Shown here: positions 5 through 23,179 of the stretch, in pieces
Layout: every line of letters starts with the position of its first letter
How positions within the stretch are numbered: the first letter of the stretch is position 1
DNA from: an uncultured Candidatus Melainabacteria bacterium
GTDB lineage: Bacteria > Cyanobacteriota > Vampirovibrionia > Gastranaerophilales > Gastranaerophilaceae
DNA length: 23,856 nt
Direction: 5' to 3'
Assembly: GCA_934717895.1 (NCBI GenBank)
Contig: CAKUZO010000024.1
Span: forward strand, 1-23,856
Notes under the pieces: model-generated
Told to the model about the DNA's origin: nothing
What the model saw: the letters and a program-made list of their open reading frames with translations, nothing else
Databases searched by the model: none
Translations under genes and position numbers: made by a program

Positions 5-1228
5 ATGGTAGCTCAACAAAATACAAATTCAATAGATTACAAAGAACTGTATTCGCAATACAACTGGTTTGCGGAATCTTATTTGCCTGCCGTACAAGCT
101 TCGTGTGACGAGTTTTTCCTTAGCGGATTTGAGTTCACATTGTTGGGAATAAGCAAAAACGTTAATACTTTAATGGACAAAGACGCATATTTTGTCACCA
201 AAGTTCGTATTGACAAGCTTCACGATATGTTTTTCAGAACATCTGAAAAAGCAGTTGCAATTATACTCGACAAAATTTTGGGCAAACCTAATTCTCGATT
301 TAATCTAAATAAACTAACTGACTTGGAAGCAAAAATTATTACGTCATTCAATGATTTTATGTTCAATTCGCTTTCCCAGTTTTTGAACCCTGCTCAACCT
401 TCTCTGAAAAGAACAAATTTTGACGTAATTCACTTAACATTTTTGATAAAAGACACAAGTACTGGAAAAGTTGCTAAACTTATTATATCTTTACCCGAAG
501 AGCTTTTAACCCCTGATGAAGTAATATCGGAAGAAGAAAAATTCGGACCGGAAGACTTTCCGACAAGTATTATTAATGCAATAGTTAAAGTCGGTTCAAC
601 CCGCACAAAACTTATTGATGTAAAGAATATTGATATTGATGATATTGTCGTTTTGGATAACAGCAATACATCACGTATGGTTCTAAAATTAAACGAATAT
701 GAAGAAGACATTAATCTAAACCCAAACTTGGGACTGGTTGTTCCGGTTGATAACGATGGAGGAAATATTGAAATGGCAGGAGAAATAACAAATCTTTGGG
801 ACAGTATTGAAGTTGAGATGGACGCTCAATTTGATTCTGTCAAAATTACTCTTGGCGAATTAAAGAATATAGAAAAAGGCTTGGTTGTCGATTTGACATC
901 AATTTATGACAATAAAGTTACACTCAGCGTAGAGAATAAACCTATCGCAAAAGGCGAACTTGTTATTGTTAACGATAGATATGGTGTAAAAATCGAAGAA
1001 GTTATTGCAAATTCTCAAAAAACGAATTCCGAAGAAGAAATAGAAGGACCGCAGGAAGAATTTGACGAAAATGAAGAGCACCCACAATCTGATGACGATT
1101 TTGGGGACGAAACAATGGACTTTGATGAAAATTCTGAACAACATCAAGAAGAAAATGAAGAAGGCGAACATTCAGATGAAGATGAATTTGATTACAGCGA
1201 TTTTGAACTGGAAGATGAGGACATATAG
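5..1228 (+). CDS. flagellar motor switch protein, FliM/FliN family (two SpoA domains)
   Basis: This is probably a component of the flagellar switch/C-ring, on the cytoplasmic face of the export gate. Residues about 80-130 resemble the middle part of FliM/SctQ-type proteins (a 'LTDLEAKI' helix). Two SpoA-like domains follow, at about 186-250 and 265-335; the second (from 'WDSIEVEMDAQF' to 'YGVKIEEVI') is the clearer. A highly acidic, probably disordered tail runs from about 340 to 407. The two-SpoA layout resembles SctQ or a FliM/FliN hybrid more than classical FliN, which has one SpoA domain and is much shorter. I see no FliM-type CheY-binding peptide at the N-terminus. The ATG lies five bases from the window edge, so the ribosome site cannot be judged and the true start could be upstream. 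fliO, fliP, fliQ and fliR follow on the same strand, which supports a flagellar rather than virulence-secretion role. The fliM versus fliN name is unsettled. Confidence 0.8.
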   Translation: MVAQQNTNSIDYKELYSQYNWFAESYLPAVQASCDEFFLSGFEFTLLGISKNVNTLMDKDAYFVTKVRIDKLHDMFFRTSEKAVAIILDKILGKPNSRFNLNKLTDLEAKIITSFNDFMFNSLSQFLNPAQPSLKRTNFDVIHLTFLIKDTSTGKVAKLIISLPEELLTPDEVISEEEKFGPEDFPTSIINAIVKVGSTRTKLIDVKNIDIDDIVVLDNSNTSRMVLKLNEYEEDINLNPNLGLVVPVDNDGGNIEMAGEITNLWDSIEVEMDAQFDSVKITLGELKNIEKGLVVDLTSIYDNKVTLSVENKPIAKGELVIVNDRYGVKIEEVIANSQKTNSEEEIEGPQEEFDENEEHPQSDDDFGDETMDFDENSEQHQEENEEGEHSDEDEFDYSDFELEDEDI

Positions 1229-1355: not shown

Positions 1356-1814
1356 ATGGGATATATGATAAATTTCATAGTTTACACAATTGCAATGGTA
1401 GGGATAATTTCTCTTGCCGTATTTGTTTATAAAAAATTCTCTTTTTGTGCCGGCTCAAAATCAAAATTCTTAAATGTTGAAGATTGTATAAGTATTGGAC
1501 CTAGAAAAGAACTTTTTGTTGTCAGAGCAGGCAACGAAAGATTTTTAGTAGCCTCTGATGTTGGCAGAACAAGTTTGATTTCTAAATTAAACACAAATTC
1601 TAACTATGTTGAAGAAGTAAAAGAAATTGCTCAAAATTCGTATAATCAAAAATCTATAAATAATTCAAAATCAATTTTGAATTCTCAAAAGAGAGAAAAT
1701 ACAACAAGTGTTGATGATTTGCCGGAAATTTTAAATATTTCAAGACAAAATCGTCCAACAATGAAAAACCACCAACCTAAAAAAGTTTTTAGGAACATCG
1801 TAAATAATATATAG
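1356..1814 (+). CDS. fliO: flagellar biosynthesis protein FliO
   Basis: FliO is a small membrane protein that helps assemble the FliP ring of the flagellar export gate. The 152-residue product has one N-terminal membrane segment (about residues 5-25). A small FliO-type cytoplasmic domain follows, with the 'VEDCISIGPRKELFVVRAGNERFLV' pattern (roughly 41-65), and then a polar Asn/Lys/Ser-rich tail. A strong ribosome site (AGAGGAGG) lies just before the ATG. The stop is only 9 bases before fliP, so the two are co-transcribed. FliO is absent from most non-flagellar type III systems, so its presence favours a true flagellum. The tail from about residue 100 is low-complexity and not recognisable. 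Confidence 0.85.
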   Translation: MGYMINFIVYTIAMVGIISLAVFVYKKFSFCAGSKSKFLNVEDCISIGPRKELFVVRAGNERFLVASDVGRTSLISKLNTNSNYVEEVKEIAQNSYNQKSINNSKSILNSQKRENTTSVDDLPEILNISRQNRPTMKNHQPKKVFRNIVNNI

Positions 1815-1823
1815 AGGGATATA

Positions 1824-2465
1824 ATGGAAACAATAATTAAAGATATGAATCCGGTATTACAAATGTTGATATTAATGACAGTTTTCTCATTAATACCATT
1901 GATTTTTTGCTGTATGACAAGTTTTTTAAGATTTGTCATTGTGTTTTCAATGCTGAAAACCGCAATGGGTACTCAACAGGTTCCTCCATCAATTGTAATT
2001 ATCGGACTTGCAATGATTTTGACATTTTATACAATGGGCGGAACTTTCCAGAAAATGTACGATATGGGTTCTGTTCCATACCAAAAGAACCAAAATATCA
2101 TTGAGGCAATAAATGAGGGTTCAAAACCATTAAAAGAATTTATGATGAAACAAACCAGAGAAAGCGATCTTGCATTCTTTGTAGAAGCTTCAAAAGGAGC
2201 TCCGCCAAAGAGTCCTGATGAAATTACGGTTTGGCAGGTAGCTCCTGCATTCATCATAAGCGAATTGAAAACCTCATTCGAAATCGGATTTATCATTTTC
2301 GTACCGTTTATCGTGCTAGACCTTGTTGTGGCAAACATCTTGCTGGCACTAGGTATGTTTATGTTATCTCCAACAATCATTTCCTTGCCGTTTAAACTGC
2401 TGATATTTATTGCGGTAGACGGTTGGGCGCTGATTGTACAAGGGCTCGTGACGAGCTACAATTAA
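1824..2465 (+). CDS. fliP: flagellar export gate protein FliP
   Basis: FliP is the main subunit of the core export gate of the flagellar type III apparatus in the inner membrane. The 213-residue product contains the family hallmarks: 'SFLRFVIVFSMLKTAMGTQQVPP' near residues 33-55, and in the C-terminal half 'AFIISELKTSFEIGF', 'PFIVLDLVVANILLALGMFMLSP' and 'ISLPFKLLIFIAVDGW'. About four hydrophobic segments are visible. There is no cleavable signal peptide of the kind seen in some proteobacterial FliP proteins. An AGAGGG ribosome site precedes the ATG. It sits between fliO and fliQ as in most flagellar operons. Confidence 0.95.
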   Translation: METIIKDMNPVLQMLILMTVFSLIPLIFCCMTSFLRFVIVFSMLKTAMGTQQVPPSIVIIGLAMILTFYTMGGTFQKMYDMGSVPYQKNQNIIEAINEGSKPLKEFMMKQTRESDLAFFVEASKGAPPKSPDEITVWQVAPAFIISELKTSFEIGFIIFVPFIVLDLVVANILLALGMFMLSPTIISLPFKLLIFIAVDGWALIVQGLVTSYN

Positions 2466-2611
2466 GCTTATCAGATGCTAAGAGGCATAGATGCAAAGTC
2501 CGTTACAGGCAAGTAGATTTTAGGGACTCACCAAACAACCATACAAAAACAAACAAGTAGTAAATAGGTCAGGTTCCGACTGACAACAAAAAAAACAAAA
2601 AGAGGACAAAA
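2466..2611. repeat. 146-bp spacer within the flagellar operon carrying dispersed-repeat sequence
   Basis: This gap separates fliP from fliQ, which are normally adjacent. It includes a 16-base word, AAGAGGCATAGATGCA (2480-2495), that recurs exactly at 19026-19041, and a small hairpin GTCAG/CTGAC with a 7-base loop around 2567-2583. The last 20 bases are A-rich and hold the fliQ ribosome site (AGAGGAC). No T-tract terminator or convincing promoter is visible, so the operon probably reads through. Confidence 0.55.
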
Positions 2612-3100
2612 ATGGAAGTTTTAGTAGAATATTTAGCAAAAGGATTTTTAATAATGCTTGCAATATCTATGCCTTGCGTACTGGTTGCTGCCGGCATTGG
2701 TCTGGTTGTAGGTATTTTACAGGCTGTAACTCAGGTTCAAGAACAAACTATTGCTGCTGCTCCAAAAATTTTGGGCGTATTTCTTGTTATCGTTATCGGC
2801 GGAATCGGGTTTATAAATATGTTAAAAGGATTTTTTACTGACGGTATGTCAATAGCTTTTAATCTTGTTTCAAAAAACGACTCTTATGTTTTGCCGGCAG
2901 ACTATTTTAAATATACTTCTCCTTTTGAAAAAGAAATGTCTGACAAATTTAAAAATCAAGGTGATGTTGATTACTTGATGAAGCACCCTGGAAAAGTTCC
3001 ATTCATAGATAATCAACAAAAAACAAAATACATATCAAGTCCTCAAACCCCAATGCCAAAGCCTAATTTTGTAGAAACAAATAAAATTATTGGAAGATAG
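2612..3100 (+). CDS. fliQ: flagellar export gate protein FliQ with C-terminal extension
   Basis: FliQ is a small two-helix subunit that wraps the FliP-FliR gate in the inner membrane. Residues 1-85 are a normal FliQ: first helix about 12-37, the conserved 'ILQAVTQVQEQTIAAAPKILGV' loop (about 35-56), then a second helix about 54-75. The usual protein ends near residue 90. This one continues for about 75 more polar residues, rich in Lys, Asn, Pro and Gln, with no recognisable domain. An AGAGGAC ribosome site precedes the ATG. fliR follows 13 bases after the stop. The extension is in frame with no sign of a frameshift. Confidence 0.9.
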   Translation: MEVLVEYLAKGFLIMLAISMPCVLVAAGIGLVVGILQAVTQVQEQTIAAAPKILGVFLVIVIGGIGFINMLKGFFTDGMSIAFNLVSKNDSYVLPADYFKYTSPFEKEMSDKFKNQGDVDYLMKHPGKVPFIDNQQKTKYISSPQTPMPKPNFVETNKIIGR

Positions 3101-3113
3101 AAAGGAAACGTAA

Positions 3114-3893
3114 GTGGAGCAAATTATTTCAGAATTAATGAAAATGTTTCCTTTGTTGAGCGCTTATTTAGCCGGCGGAATTTTTATTTTCGCAAGGCTT
3201 TTGGGCTTTTTTAGGCTTGCTCCCGTCTTCAATAGAAAAGAAATCCCTGGAATGGTAAAAATTTCATTGTGCCTCTTAATGACGATAGTTTTAACTTGTA
3301 CCGTAAAACCTGACGTTACTGTAATACAAGGTTCGTTTGCATTATCAATCGTTTTGAATATGGTTGTCGGAGCTATGATTGGATATATTGCTCAACTAAT
3401 TCTTCTGGCAGTAGATGCCGGTGGTGATATGGTAAATATGCAAATGGGGCTTTCTTCTGCAATGGTATTGGATCCTACAACGTCTTCACAAGTATCCATT
3501 GTTGGAAAATGCTTTCAACTTTTAGGGCTTGTTATTTTTATCCAACTAGGTGGAATTTATTGGTTAATTACCGCATTAATTCATAGTATTCATATATTCC
3601 CTCTTGGAGCTACAACTGTTCCGTTGCATGAAATCGTTAATATGGATTATATGGTTAAACTATCATCAAATGTCCTATTTATGGGATTACAAATTGCATC
3701 TCCAATACTCTTAGCGACTTTGGGACAAGATATTATCTTAGGGGTAATTTCCAAAACAGCACCACAAGTAAACGTATTTCAATTGAGTTTCCTTTTTAAA
3801 CCGGTTTTAGGAGCGGCAATTATGGTGTGGATTTTGCCAATGCTTGTAAATATTATTTCAGATTACTTTTTGTCATTTTCACAAATTATATAG
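3114..3893 (+). CDS. fliR: flagellar export gate protein FliR
   Basis: FliR caps the FliP/FliQ helical assembly and completes the core export gate. The 259-residue product is highly hydrophobic with about six membrane segments. It carries family features such as 'ARLLGFFRLAPVF' (about 27-39), 'QMGLSSAMVLDPTTSSQV' (about 110-127) and a C-terminal 'GAAIMVWILPMLV' region. The start is GTG, preceded by AAAGGA. Length is normal for FliR. flhB, which often follows or is fused to fliR, is absent. A bidirectional terminator comes about 50 bases downstream. Confidence 0.92.
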   Translation: MEQIISELMKMFPLLSAYLAGGIFIFARLLGFFRLAPVFNRKEIPGMVKISLCLLMTIVLTCTVKPDVTVIQGSFALSIVLNMVVGAMIGYIAQLILLAVDAGGDMVNMQMGLSSAMVLDPTTSSQVSIVGKCFQLLGLVIFIQLGGIYWLITALIHSIHIFPLGATTVPLHEIVNMDYMVKLSSNVLFMGLQIASPILLATLGQDIILGVISKTAPQVNVFQLSFLFKPVLGAAIMVWILPMLVNIISDYFLSFSQII

Positions 3894-6549: not shown

Positions 6550-7467
6550 TTATGCAAAAATTGATTCTTTCACGCTTTTTTCTCTAATTCTTCTGCTCAT
6601 TTCAGATTTTGTAATTTTACCGTCTTTGTTGTAATCCATTTTTGCGTTTGTTGGGTTATAACCGCTTTCGCCTTTTGAGTAAAGAACTTCTCTGTTAGCT
6701 CTTCCCGGTGCCAAAATCATTGCATACAAATCTCCTGCTGATAATCTTGCGTTAGGAGAGAATTTCCATTTTTTGATATATAGCAAAAGTTTTTCTGCCA
6801 ATTCAAGTTGTTCTAATCTTGACATATTCGGAATTTGTTCTTTTGTTAAGCCTTTGCAGCCACATTTGTTTCTAAGTTCTTCAACCGCAGCATCTCCAAA
6901 TTGAATTAGTCCTACATAGCTTCCGCATTTTGCTTTCGGATCAAAACCTGATTCACTGTTAATCAAAGCTAATAAATCTTTATAATCACAGTTTAATTTT
7001 TTAGCAACTTTCTTAACTTTTCTCAAAAAATGTTTGTCCAATTTTCCTGTATCTTTAATTGGAGAATTATCAGTATCTGAAACATCAGTTGTTTTGTCTG
7101 TTTTATTCGTGCTTTCTACCGGTTTCCAACTTGCATAATTTACTGTCGGTATTGAGAACAAATTTCCAAAATTGAAAGTTGGCATAGTAAATAGAGGTAT
7201 TGAATAATTATTTAAAATTGGCATTGAAGCGTAATTGCCGGAAAAAATTGACGGATAAGCAGTTGTAGAACCGAAAGTCGGCATCATAGGCATTGTTAAT
7301 CCGCTAAATATTGGCATTGAAGGCATTCCGAATTGGAATGAATTCATGAAACTAAAAGGATTCATATATGAATTACAGTGGCAACCGCCAAACATGAACG
7401 GATTAAAACCTGCAAACGGATTGCAGTTTCCAGCTATATTAAAGTTATGAAATCCAAAAAAGTTCAT
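6550..7467 (-). CDS. lysozyme/transglycosylase-like muralytic protein with Phe/Met/Pro-rich N-terminus
   Basis: The C-terminal half (about residues 140-300) looks like a goose/SLT-type lysozyme fold that cleaves peptidoglycan. It has 'LLALINSESGFDPKAKCGSYVGLIQFG' (about 165-191), with Glu172 as the likely catalytic acid and the usual GLIQF strand. 'LYAMILAPGRANREVLY' (about 247-263) follows. Near the end is an EF-hand-like loop, 'DYNKDGKITKSE' (278-289), common at the end of phage-type muramidases. The first 115 residues are unlike an enzyme: rich in Phe, Met, Pro, Asn, Gly and Ser, with repeated MNPF/FNPF/MPTF-type words and no classical signal peptide. A Thr/Lys/Asp linker (about 116-145) joins the halves. 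An AAGGGA ribosome site precedes the ATG. It could act in flagellar rod penetration, wall turnover or as a secreted effector; context does not decide. No immunity gene is evident. Confidence 0.72.
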   Translation of the reverse strand: MNFFGFHNFNIAGNCNPFAGFNPFMFGGCHCNSYMNPFSFMNSFQFGMPSMPIFSGLTMPMMPTFGSTTAYPSIFSGNYASMPILNNYSIPLFTMPTFNFGNLFSIPTVNYASWKPVESTNKTDKTTDVSDTDNSPIKDTGKLDKHFLRKVKKVAKKLNCDYKDLLALINSESGFDPKAKCGSYVGLIQFGDAAVEELRNKCGCKGLTKEQIPNMSRLEQLELAEKLLLYIKKWKFSPNARLSAGDLYAMILAPGRANREVLYSKGESGYNPTNAKMDYNKDGKITKSEMSRRIREKSVKESIFA

Positions 7468-9650: not shown

Positions 9651-10997
9651 ATGGACGGATTGGACACAAGTAGTTTAGAAGAGCTTAAAACTCGAATACA
9701 CGAAAAGCTTGAAGCGACAGAGATGTATCGCTACAAGGGAACTGTATCAAAGCTTTTGGGGTTGACGGTTGAAGTTAAACTTCCGGGACTTAAAGTTGGT
9801 GACTTATGTTATATAGAAACAAAAGATGGAAGGCGAAAACCGGCAGAAGTTCAAGCTTTCAAGGGAGAAGTTGCACAATTACTTTTGCTTTATGATGGTG
9901 AAGGTATTGGGCAAGGTAGTTTGGTGACTTCGACAGGAAAACCTATTACAATTCCTGTTGGGGACTTTCTTTTGGGACGATTGATTAATCCGATGGGAGA
10001 GCCGATTGACGGAAAGCCTCTTGATACATCAGGTGCGACTTGGCGTCCGGTTGAAGGTCCACCTCCGGGACCTTTTGAAAGACCAATTATTACGGAAGTC
10101 TTTTCAACAGGTGTTCGTGCAATTGACAGCTGCATGACAATGGGTTGCGGGCAGCGTCTAGGGCTGTTTGCAGGTTCAGGCGTTGGTAAAAGTACATTGC
10201 TTGGTATGATTGCACGAAATTCTGATGCGGACGTAAACGTAGTTGCACTAATCGGAGAACGTGGGCGTGAAGTTAAAGAGTTTGTTGAAGATGCACTTGG
10301 CGAAAAAGGTATGGCAAAATCCGTTCTTGTTTGCTCCACAGGCGACCAACCGCCACTAATTCGTCAAAAAGCACTTTTGACAGCGACTGCTGTGTGTGAA
10401 TATTTTAGAGATCAAGGTAAAAAAGTTTTCTTGATGACAGATACCGTAACTCGTTGTGCCATGGCTGGACGTGAAGTTGGCTTGTCACTAGGTGAACCGC
10501 CAACAATGAAAGGTTATCCGCCATCAATTTTCTCTTGGTTACAAAAAGTTTTGGAAAGAGCCGGAAACAGTCCGAAAGGCTCTGTTACGGCACTTTATAC
10601 AGTACTTATGGAAGGTGATGATATTTCCGACCCGATTGTAGATATTGTGCGTGGTATTGTTGACGGTCACATTTTCTTGTCAAGAAAAGTTGCCGAAATG
10701 AATCACTACCCAGCAATTGACGTTTTGGGAAGTATTTCAAGGTTGATGTCATCTATTGTTCAGCCGGAACACAAAGAGGCAGCAGGTAAAATGCGTACGA
10801 TTATGGCTCTTTATCGAGAAAATAAAGACCTTATCGATGTCGGCATGTACCAACCGGGGACAAATCCTCGACTTGATACTGCAATTGAGATGATGCCGAA
10901 AATTAATGCATTTTTACAACAAAGAACCACTGATATTGTGAGCATGGACACAACTATTCAAACCCTCGTTGATATGATGCGTGGCGTAGAGATTTAG
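9651..10997 (+). CDS. fliI: flagellar type III export ATPase FliI
   Basis: FliI is the cytoplasmic hexameric ATPase that energises and unfolds cargo for the flagellar export gate (FliP/Q/R above). Residues 20-95 are the beta-barrel domain. Walker A is GSGVGKST (175-182), followed by 'IGERGREV' (201-208) and Walker B 'VFLMTD' (259-264). The segment 'GEPPTMKGYPPSIFSWLQKVLERAG' is diagnostic of FliI/SctN ATPases and separates them from F1-alpha/beta. Length 448 is normal. It is unlinked to the fliOPQR cluster and lies just before atpD, but ends without a shared ribosome site; atpD has its own promoter. No ribosome site precedes the ATG and a perfect promoter ends just upstream, so the mRNA is probably leaderless. 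Confidence 0.93.
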   Translation: MDGLDTSSLEELKTRIHEKLEATEMYRYKGTVSKLLGLTVEVKLPGLKVGDLCYIETKDGRRKPAEVQAFKGEVAQLLLLYDGEGIGQGSLVTSTGKPITIPVGDFLLGRLINPMGEPIDGKPLDTSGATWRPVEGPPPGPFERPIITEVFSTGVRAIDSCMTMGCGQRLGLFAGSGVGKSTLLGMIARNSDADVNVVALIGERGREVKEFVEDALGEKGMAKSVLVCSTGDQPPLIRQKALLTATAVCEYFRDQGKKVFLMTDTVTRCAMAGREVGLSLGEPPTMKGYPPSIFSWLQKVLERAGNSPKGSVTALYTVLMEGDDISDPIVDIVRGIVDGHIFLSRKVAEMNHYPAIDVLGSISRLMSSIVQPEHKEAAGKMRTIMALYRENKDLIDVGMYQPGTNPRLDTAIEMMPKINAFLQQRTTDIVSMDTTIQTLVDMMRGVEI

Positions 10998-13883: not shown

Positions 13884-15437
13884 TTATATTTTTGCAACAT
13901 CAAGTTTTGCCAGATTTTTGACGAATTCTTCTTCTGGTATTGTAATATCAACACCGGCTCTATGAGGATTTGTTATAGTGTATGTTCTATTTACAGCATC
14001 AAAAGATTTTAGAGAATATGCATGGCTCGTTAACATATTATATTTTGGATTATTTTGTAAAAAGGCAATTCTTAATAAATAATCTTTATTATTAACGTAT
14101 TTATGGAAATCTCCAAATAATATTTTCTGTACTTCTCGAGGTGTAAATGCGTGATGAATAACTTGACAACCATTTTCACCTATTGCAGAAAATCCAGCAA
14201 TAGAACTTAAACTGGTATTTGTTTTGTTAAATTCTCTTTCTATTAAAGCGAGTCCAGGACAACCACTTAATTCTTTTTCGGAACTGCTTAATTTATCTAT
14301 TCGTATGCTGTTCCCCTTAGTATTTAAGAATAAATTTCCATATTTGTCTTGCGAAAACATTTTATATATTTCGCATCTGCCTTTGGGAGTATTCATAGCA
14401 TTTTCTAATGGGGAGATAAGAAAACAATCCCCTGTATACTTACTTTGATTTATATTGAATCTTTCTAACGGAGGAAATAGCTTTTTGTACATTTCTTCGC
14501 TTATTTTTAATTCTTCAATATTTTTTCCATTATTTAAGTACATTTTTCCATTAATAGAAATTGCATCTCCTAATTTAGTTGAATTTTGTATTTGACTTAA
14601 AGAAACATTGCCATTAAACTTTGGAAAATAATTTTGTCCATGGGCAATCGCTTCAATATCATTTAATAAATTTTTGTTCAGGCTAGCATTGAACCAAACT
14701 CCTTTTTTATTAATCATATTGTATTTTAGGGCAGAATATATATCCGGACTATTTTTTTTAAGATTGGACATCATTAACTCGCTTCTCTGCAAGAACGTCG
14801 TCATTTGTTGCGGGTTGTTTAGTAACTCTACAATATTTTTATTATTTCTGTTAAATTGTACAACGCTGGCAATTTCATCTGCACTTAAATTCATTAATTT
14901 GCCGTTTTCTAATTTTTGTAAAGGTTTGCCGTTCAAATATCTTGTTAATATTTGGGCTGTATCTTGATTTGTTGAATTTAATATTCTAGTAAAAGCACTT
15001 TGATTTGCTTTTACCCCGAGTGTTGAATGTTCAAGTAATCGCTTAATTAAGTCATAATCTCCATTCGTATTTGCAATAAATCTGTCGAATTGTGTTTTAA
15101 AAATTGGTTCATTAAAAATGTATCTTGGGTTTTCAGCCATTTTGTTCGCAAAATATGTTTTTGCTTCTAAATTAAAAGCTTTTTTAAGCTCGCCTCTTTT
15201 TTTCAAAAAGGCATTTTCCAAATTATCAGTACAATATCCATTAATTCTTGCTTGTTGGTATTCTTTCCCTAAAGCATTAAATTCCTCTCGAGTTGTGCAT
15301 TGTTGCAATTTTCGTAAGAAATTTGAATTTTCTACTGATTTTGATAAACTTCCCATAGAAGTAATAGGAGGCTTTTTACTGATACATGGCCTTATATGGC
15401 TTATAATCGTATTGGCATTGCGTGTATTAATTAACAT
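13884..15437 (-). CDS. calpain-like cysteine protease domain protein, unknown role
   Basis: I take the ATG at 15437 (517 residues), with GGGGA nine bases upstream; a TTG at 15452 is an alternative. Residues 1-320 are mostly helical and polar and match nothing I know. From about 325 the protein shows the papain/calpain (C2) arrangement: 'NQSKYTGDCFLISPLENAMNTP' with Gln331 and nucleophile Cys338, then 'LTSHAYSLKSF' with His472, then 'TYTITNPHRAG' with Asn490. These correspond to the calpain Q-GDC-F-L, HAY and NP blocks. The family cleaves proteins intracellularly in eukaryotes; bacterial members are scattered and poorly understood. There is no signal peptide or membrane segment. It is convergent with nth and divergent from a small unknown gene. 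An effector, toxin or regulated housekeeping protease are all possible. The family call is by motif only. Confidence 0.65.
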   Translation of the reverse strand: MLINTRNANTIISHIRPCISKKPPITSMGSLSKSVENSNFLRKLQQCTTREEFNALGKEYQQARINGYCTDNLENAFLKKRGELKKAFNLEAKTYFANKMAENPRYIFNEPIFKTQFDRFIANTNGDYDLIKRLLEHSTLGVKANQSAFTRILNSTNQDTAQILTRYLNGKPLQKLENGKLMNLSADEIASVVQFNRNNKNIVELLNNPQQMTTFLQRSELMMSNLKKNSPDIYSALKYNMINKKGVWFNASLNKNLLNDIEAIAHGQNYFPKFNGNVSLSQIQNSTKLGDAISINGKMYLNNGKNIEELKISEEMYKKLFPPLERFNINQSKYTGDCFLISPLENAMNTPKGRCEIYKMFSQDKYGNLFLNTKGNSIRIDKLSSSEKELSGCPGLALIEREFNKTNTSLSSIAGFSAIGENGCQVIHHAFTPREVQKILFGDFHKYVNNKDYLLRIAFLQNNPKYNMLTSHAYSLKSFDAVNRTYTITNPHRAGVDITIPEEEFVKNLAKLDVAKI

Positions 15438-15627
15438 ATATATTTTCCCCAAAAAATTTCCCCATGTACATTAATAAACACATTTCGTCGATCTTAATTG
15501 CCTATTCATTAAGTTATGTAACGAAACAAACCTTCTATAAGAGGACTTTGCACAAATTAATATAAATTAATAAATTAGCAAAAATTTCTTTTATTGGACT
15601 TATTATAAAGAAAAGAAAGGTAAAACA

Positions 15628-22518: not shown

Positions 22519-22543
22519 TGTTCCGTAAAAAAGAGGATTATTG

Positions 22544-23179
22544 ATGGTAAGTAACAGAATTACAGAAGGCGTTGGAAAAAAAATCGTAGAAGCCTTGAAA
22601 CAACAATCAGATATTGAAATTCAAAAAGTAGTGGAAAGCCCTGTGCCGGATATGAATTCGGACAATAGCTCAGAATTAGAATTTACAACAAATGAAGAAG
22701 AAAATTCTCCCCAATTTGTTGCCCCTGAGTTTGAAAACGAAACAGCAGCTCAACACGAGGAAACAACTGATGCGTTTAATAATGCTTTTTCTAACCCTAA
22801 TGTAATGTTTACTCAGCCGTCATCGGCTCCTGTTATGGGGAAAAATGATTTTGCAAGTGAGTTAGATGGCTTTGAAATTCCGACCAATATTGCAGTGTTA
22901 AAACAGCTTATTAACCAGTTGCCGGCAGGTGTTTCTCGACAAACAGGTGCTCAAATTATTAAACAAACTATGGAAGCCCTTGGTATTTCAATGAAAGGTG
23001 TGCTGCAAGAAGCTCAACAAGTTCAAGAAAGCTTGAACAACTCATCAAGAGAATGTCAGGCATCTATTATGGAATACAAGAAGCAAATCGGTGTTTTAGA
23101 ACAACAATCACAAAAATTCCAAAGACAATATGCTGCATTGAATGACGTTATAAGTTTATTTGTACAGACAAATTTGTAA
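22544..23179 (+). CDS. hypothetical coiled-coil protein, 211 aa
   Basis: I do not recognise this family. The ATG at 22544 is best placed after AGAGGA; an in-frame TTG sits one codon upstream. Residues 1-30 are a basic/amphipathic helix. Residues 31-110 are acidic and probably disordered (Glu, Asn, Ser, Pro). Residues 112-150 form a compact helical block ('IPTNIAVLKQLINQLPAGVSRQTGAQIIKQTMEALGIS'), and about 150-205 is a Gln-rich coiled coil ending 'ALNDVISLFVQTNL'. There is no signal peptide or membrane segment. A consensus promoter suggests strong expression. The adaptor-like build (helix, disordered arm, coiled coil) fits a cell-division or scaffold role, but that is a guess. Confidence 0.8.
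   Translation: MVSNRITEGVGKKIVEALKQQSDIEIQKVVESPVPDMNSDNSSELEFTTNEEENSPQFVAPEFENETAAQHEETTDAFNNAFSNPNVMFTQPSSAPVMGKNDFASELDGFEIPTNIAVLKQLINQLPAGVSRQTGAQIIKQTMEALGISMKGVLQEAQQVQESLNNSSRECQASIMEYKKQIGVLEQQSQKFQRQYAALNDVISLFVQTNL

Follow-up and report, generated by a model that had tools for sequence, protein, structure and literature searches.

The window analysed here, a stretch of 23,856 nucleotides from an uncultured Candidatus Melainabacteria bacterium, carries a gene for a calpain-type cysteine peptidase at positions 13884..15437 of the minus strand (517 amino acids (aa) plus stop, ATG at 15437). The calpain-type identity is strongly supported by the predicted fold and by the order and conservation of the active-site residues Gln, Cys, His and Asn; judged by fold and residues, the gene is predicted to be intact and its product to be catalytically complete and active. 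The protein is a stand-alone member of a calpain family largely specific to its order. Two kinds of gene make up this family: long or giant ones, in which the calpain unit is usually terminal and which are followed by a gene for a partner protein of about 100 aa, and mostly short ones that have no partner. As an explanation we favour, with somewhat less than even confidence, that these calpains are exported effector-type proteases, the long forms with a partner that would serve as chaperone or inhibitor, the short forms without; export and activity are both presumed in this proposal.

The open reading frame (ORF) had been placed at 13884..15437 by an earlier sequence-only reading, and these coordinates hold for the minus strand. 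On the plus strand the frame over the same positions is riddled with stops. An alternative start, TTG at 15452, would give a protein of 522 aa. Nine homologs of the 517-aa protein were found by protein search among 7996 scored candidates, and the gene call is based on the ORF, these homologs and the ten-row alignment A1, in which they are aligned with the window protein. P0001 is a close homolog with 91% identity and equal length (517 aa). A repeated protein search with A1, in which the limits on length restricted the matches, returned the same nine homologs and none further. With the single window protein no relative was found in genome contigs; with A1 one was detected there, L001 in genome G001, at 39% identity, and none in viral contigs. 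PADLOC assigned no family to the three proteins submitted.

The motifs around Gln331, Cys338, His472 and Asn490 that the sequence-only reading had named, and their numbering, proved correct. The codons lie on the minus strand at 14445..14447 (Gln331, oxyanion-hole position), 14424..14426 (Cys338, nucleophile position), 14022..14024 (His472) and 13968..13970 (Asn490), and all four residues are invariant in 10/10 rows of A1. In an alignment of 31 rows, Gln, Cys and His were present in 31/31 and Asn in 30/31. The 44 family rows agree completely in Gln, Cys and His (44/44 each), so that the motifs exceed a chance likeness; their Asn490 column holds N 33, D 9, L 1 and one gap. When the set was broadened to 63 rows, Gln331 was found in 62, and Cys338 and His472, on whose conservation among homologs the family call had been staked, in 63 and 59, respectively. 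The remaining rows of the His472 column are K 2, E 1 and gap 1, and the Asn490 column comprises N 43, D 15, L 1, Q 1 and three gaps. The rows without His (L187, L189, L192 and one L197 copy) may be degenerate or misaligned. The closely related L187, L189 and L192 proteins (444-453 aa) have Lys or Glu in place of His472 and are possibly inactive, or misaligned there.

The structure prediction proposed as a check of the family call gave a model of residues 314-517 (13887..14498, minus strand) with the fold of a calpain protease core, and the closest solved structures are calpain protease cores. Together with the order and conservation of the four residues, this bears out the assignment as calpain-type. 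From fold and conservation, Cys338 would be expected to attack, with His472 as base, Asn490 orienting His472 and Gln331 forming the oxyanion hole.

Compared with calpains of family C2 (PF00648; cores of calpain-1, -3 and -9), the window protein shares the core fold and has Gln, Cys, His and Asn in the same order. In contrast, sequence identity is 13-18% (VIA rows 1-18), and the window protein adds a pre-catalytic module specific to its family and, at the N-terminus, a helical one. Neither EF-hand nor Calpain_III matched the window protein in a Pfam scan, and in the model its C-terminal end is the end of the protease core. Because EF-hand and domain III are lacking beside the core, it is not classed as a classical Ca-dependent calpain. 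Peptidase_C2 (PF00648) was not reported for the window protein at E <=10. At E <=1 it matched four of the ten A1 rows, the window's not among them, with 4.2e-7 as the best value; of nine long relatives eight matched, three above the cut-off. A search of genome G001 with PF00648 gave no match and is uninformative, since the control genomes gave none either. Against Protein Data Bank (PDB) sequences the single window protein had no match, and the A1 profile reached calpain-9 weakly (E 0.17), ranked under two SAKe6 chains that matched another stretch.

The N-terminal part is less familiar. Residues 1-37 (15327..15437) have predicted local distance difference test (pLDDT) values <50, and no obvious Sec signal peptide was seen by eye, in agreement with the sequence-only reading. 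That reading had also matched the first 320 residues to no known domain; for residues 38-240 neither a Pfam domain above the cut-off nor a convincing PDB fold match was obtained. Modelled alone, residues 38-320 reach a pLDDT of 90.5. They comprise a mainly helical module (residues 38-240; 14718..15326) and most of the pre-catalytic module (residues 241-326; 14460..14717), which was delimited by alignment and carries the pattern ...GDAxxIxGKxY...LFPPxxRF; all coordinates are on the minus strand. The pre-catalytic stretch 283-327 is present in 31/31 aligned rows. For the whole protein, nothing in Pfam was above the cut-off, Nif11 (E 0.026) remaining below it.

The distribution of the family was examined in 286 genomes of the window's order, taken as Gastranaerophilales, with A1 as query and at most about five candidates scored per genome. 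Matches were obtained in 133/286 genomes; the open frames that hold the listed matches vary in length between about 340 and 4139 aa. Among 289 genomes of the class, those outside the order sample gave best E-values of 7e-14 or weaker. A protein search with the calpain unit of a giant member included P0011 and P0028, which bear the source name Candidatus Gastranaerophilales. Nine long relatives were scanned for further domains: LysM was above the cut-off in L032, L036 and L045, FHA in L032 and L036, and EF-hand in L045, while EF-hand matches in L032, L042 and L044 were below it. Short partner-free relatives of about 440-790 aa were seen in L185, L187-L189, L192, L194, L198 and L202, several of them starting with MGL... 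or MGI... and a basic stretch. Two divergent calpain-like ORFs were noticed as well, one of 255 aa (L041, 8043-8810, minus strand) just 3' of a giant calpain gene and its partner, the other of 273 aa (L124, 640-1461, plus strand).

In the passages used here, Rawlings 2015 (PMC4631099) describes bacterial calpain homologues as rare, none with an EF-hand domain, and bacterial C2 peptidases as varied in architecture, some proposed to be secreted; the name 'Melainabacteria' is absent from its main text. The proteins described here are likewise bacterial C2 peptidases of varied architecture. They differ from that part of the account in that 133/286 genomes of one order have a match and in the EF-hand above the cut-off in L045. 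The rarity of bacterial calpains assumed in the sequence-only reading agrees with those passages in general and does not extend to this order. In the open-licence literature no paper on calpain in Melainabacteria was found, and none, judged by title, on cysteine proteases in Gastranaerophilales.

A survey of neighbouring genes for immunity or secretion functions had been suggested by the sequence-only reading. For small neighbours its outcome was mixed. In 16 of the first 22 calpain loci (window, L001 and 20 others) the calpain gene is immediately followed, on its own strand, by a gene from a single family of small proteins; the window, L001, L039, L043, L046 and L051 lack it, and the 20 calpain loci next in rank lack it throughout. 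Across 93 scanned loci, a profile of this partner detected none beyond those 16. Run against the 286 genomes, the profile yielded 39 match rows, spread over 34 genomes, and 38/39 rows adjoin a calpain ORF. Sixteen rows are the first loci and 21 lie in 20 newly fetched loci, two of these rows being pieces of one gene in G129. Of the remaining two, the row in G283 is adjacent to a calpain by coordinates, and that in G269 is weak (26 bits) in a genome without calpain match. In 20/20 of the further partner loci the partner gene is preceded, at a distance of 0-58 bp, by the end of a calpain-domain ORF. Two of these ORFs are truncated (182 and 186 aa; L166 10168-10716 and L182 8570-9130), with the partner gene still downstream. 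Altogether, the partner lies directly downstream of the calpain ORF in L032-L038, L040-L042, L044, L045, L047-L050 and L165-L184.

The complete partner-bearing calpain ORFs encode 806 to 4136 aa. In the 34 pairs that remain without the two truncated ORFs, partners are 93-128 aa long with a median pI of 5.5 (4.7-9.4) and gaps of 0-101 bp. Distances among partners and among calpains are correlated (Mantel r 0.78, 0/2000). The partner may go with the N-terminus or with the calpain unit: at 150 aa the partner-bearing proteins form several N-terminal clusters; at 300 aa and E 1e-5 most join one by single linkage. The partner family has no convincing Pfam or PDB match and is found almost only beside calpain genes: Pfam matches were weak (best E 0.00033, below its cut-off), and the best PDB match of the profile (E 1e-4) covered 29 positions of a chain called CAP REPEAT. 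Calpain is known to work with calpastatin or a small subunit as dedicated small partner. Part of the present family, calpain-type too, resembles this arrangement, and no sequence relation of the partner to calpastatin or the calpain small subunit was seen among PDB chains. That the helical N-terminus of the window protein is a fused partner is not supported; HHalign probabilities were 0.17 and 0.35 (percent scale, two cuts), and 20 column-shuffled controls reach 0.34.

The window form has no partner, and its nearest clade has one. In a tree of 44 calpain units the proteins of about 520 aa join the partner-bearing L032-L038 clade with support 99/97, and in a tree of 63 units they do so again with 98/96. 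Of the seven sister proteins, the five in L032-L036 begin to align with the family profile at position 90-100 and the other two at about 170. Therefore the window protein resembles the C-terminal part of its sisters and has another N-terminus. The first 30 residues are net positive in 26/28 partner-free or unknown forms vs 13/21 partner-bearing ones; the basic N-termini of partner-free forms are a lead to a separate targeting signal.

If the family is exported, the partner of the partner-bearing branch would bind its calpain protein ahead of export and serve as chaperone, inhibitor or both. Forms that lack the partner, mostly with a basic N-terminus, would be exported without it, and in the window form the helical module may hold the protease inactive or position its substrate. 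The likeliest gate would be a second flagellar-type export apparatus of the order. A eukaryotic target of the protease is a guess.

Genes of such an apparatus lie on the plus strand of the window: one for a FliM/SctQ-like protein (5..1228), which has a single FliMN_C domain and is a candidate component of the export machinery, fliO-fliP-fliQ-fliR-like genes of the export gate (1356..3893) and one for a FliI/SctN-like ATPase (9651..10997). The window FliI has 81 and 86% identity to two second-apparatus copies vs 48% to two flagellar copies. Across the order, FliP was found in 284/286 genomes and the FliF family in 283/286; the canonical FliF copy is present in 118, and a divergent copy, by subtraction, in about 279. 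Among 25 calpain-bearing genomes flagellin was matched in seven (18 without match), FlhB in 25 and YscJ/FliF in 24, and two FlhB copies occur in exactly the seven flagellin-bearing genomes. Divergent FlhB and FlhA share 72-93% identity among genomes and 31-38% with the flagellar copies of G176; for divergent FliF the values are 57-86% vs 23-25%. Rod proteins were matched in 25/25 genomes, weakly where flagellin is absent. In G001 a cluster (L059, 9058-14993) has FliE, FliF, FliH and FHIPEP matches; a protein at the place of FliG had no FliG match, and FlhB is on another contig. L060 and L068 also carry parts of the apparatus. On this sequence evidence, the order as a whole appears to have a second flagellar-type export apparatus, which is free of flagellin and separate from the flagellum. 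Partial flagellar gene sets in this order were described by Soo 2014 (PMC4040986) and Utami 2018 (PMC5877343), and in the passages used here the former interprets them as loss of a functional flagellum; these may be the same genes. No description of a second apparatus was found in the open-licence literature covered (titles, the beginnings of abstracts and, in part, PMC7018530).

Several observations were made around these genes. The order of genes around fliM-fliR is not conserved, the window's Min, Atp and Nth genes being unmatched nearby in 60 relatives (L074-L133). Genome G175 has 23 Flagellin_N matches. At 6550-7467 (minus strand) the window encodes a transglycosylase (SLT, slightly below the cut-off); it lacks an obvious signal peptide and has an EF-hand-like stretch close to its C-terminal end. 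That it is the wall-cutting enzyme of the export apparatus is a guess. Homologs of the protein at 22541-23179 and proteins starting with 'MG[LM]AASQAR...' occur near the divergent fliF cluster in L059 (3963-6721), L063 and L065, and MGLAASQAR-type proteins near fliM-fliR in L124; both types may belong to the apparatus or be its cargo. Near the N-terminus (residues 5-40), the motif [SNTPAI]F[KGQ][GA] was counted in 23/477 ORFs of window and loci vs four and one in two internal windows. It was picked after inspection and is an export-tag lead at most; the window calpain does not have it at its N-terminus.

The link between the calpains and the export machine is circumstantial. As to secretion genes, the neighbour survey was positive from one side, with export genes near the calpain in 4/22 calpain loci (window, L001, L037 and, with FliI, L044), and nearly empty from the other. 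Sixty FliP loci from 60 genomes, picked by FliP similarity to the window, contained one weak calpain-like ORF (L124, E 1.5e-10, 273 aa); a calpain match is known for 25 of the 60 genomes. In the first 20 of these loci the flanks are unequal, with about 2 kb to one side and up to 17 kb to the other, and contig ends truncate several of the loci. With 1/60, calpain genes sitting with export genes as a rule is not supported. Nor is calpain tied to loss of the flagellum: canonical FliF is present in 50/133 calpain genomes vs 68/153 others (Fisher p 0.28).

Besides these two results, the low yield of the FliP loci and the lack of a tie between calpain presence and flagellum absence, further points weigh against exported effectors with a partner. 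Co-occurrence is uninformative because the apparatus is near-universal and calpains are in under half of the genomes, and the window protein bears no direct sign of export. Asn490 is replaced by Asp in 15/63 relatives and His472 is absent in 4/63. Shared descent by itself would likewise make the distances correlate, and 18/34 pairs come from loci fetched through the partner, the two truncated ORFs being excluded. A partner with every long calpain is an idea weakened by the next-best calpain loci (0/20), among them ORFs of 1033, 1473 and 2863 aa. Since partners match in 33/133 calpain genomes, in none of those 20 loci and not beside the window calpain gene, the pairing says little on the window gene itself. 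Partner-free short forms sit just outside the window's neighbourhood, and under midpoint rooting the partner label changes eight times on the 63-row tree vs three times on the 44-row tree, which weakens a single loss of the partner as origin of the short forms; for the window branch, loss and gain are thus both possible.

A purely intracellular protease for regulation or quality control, with the helical N-terminal module as regulator, is a possible though on the whole rather unlikely alternative. It agrees with the lack of a visible signal peptide, with the window gene having no partner and with the numerous short partner-free relatives. Moreover, the full-length relative in L001 lies near atpC too, which hints at vertical upkeep. 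Such a patchy distribution would be unusual in a housekeeping enzyme: among the six genomes whose FliP is closest to that of the window, four (G165, G044, G038 and G024) have no calpain match, and the other two (G075 and G039) match partially.

The small downstream gene could also be an immunity gene and the family an antibacterial toxin, as in polymorphic toxin systems. The papain-like toxin/immunity pairs PDB 9l5u and 8ssk match the clan CA-like fold, and a small downstream gene accompanies part of the family here. Nevertheless this is improbable. The closest folds are calpains, not papain-like toxins. Most calpain genomes have no partner match, and the window gene has no such immunity gene beside it. 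Polymorphic toxin systems are expected to have many unrelated immunity genes, and the partner is one family.

A self-processing module cutting the long proteins, with stand-alone forms acting on them in trans, would account for the fixed place of the calpain unit in many long proteins and for the two units in L048, L049, L167, L180 and L181. It is very improbable, since the calpain is the last domain in 23/34 long proteins, with little downstream to release. A calpain-fold protein without peptidase activity, used for other clan CA chemistry or for binding, is hardly credible given the complete and invariant active site of the window protein in A1.

Exported effector-type calpains thus remain the preferred, tentative explanation. 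More doubtful is the wider picture that the order, most likely one of non-photosynthetic relatives of cyanobacteria, arms a flagellum-derived, flagellin-free export machine with its own calpain effectors, giants with a small inhibitor or chaperone and short forms with basic N-termini, including that of the window. New in this analysis are the order-wide family, the partner pairing, the partner-bearing nearest clade of the window form and the link of the window's flagellar-type genes to the second apparatus; the pairing and the apparatus are the likeliest surprises for specialists. If the wider picture were true, it would combine a two-gene calpain system in bacteria with a secretion system not reported before. 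Attention is drawn to the second export apparatus of the order, and to a lineage in which bacterial calpains, described as rare in the passages used of PMC4631099, are common. With short and giant forms and a partner gene at hand, it becomes practical to ask how a bacterial calpain stays off and where it acts.
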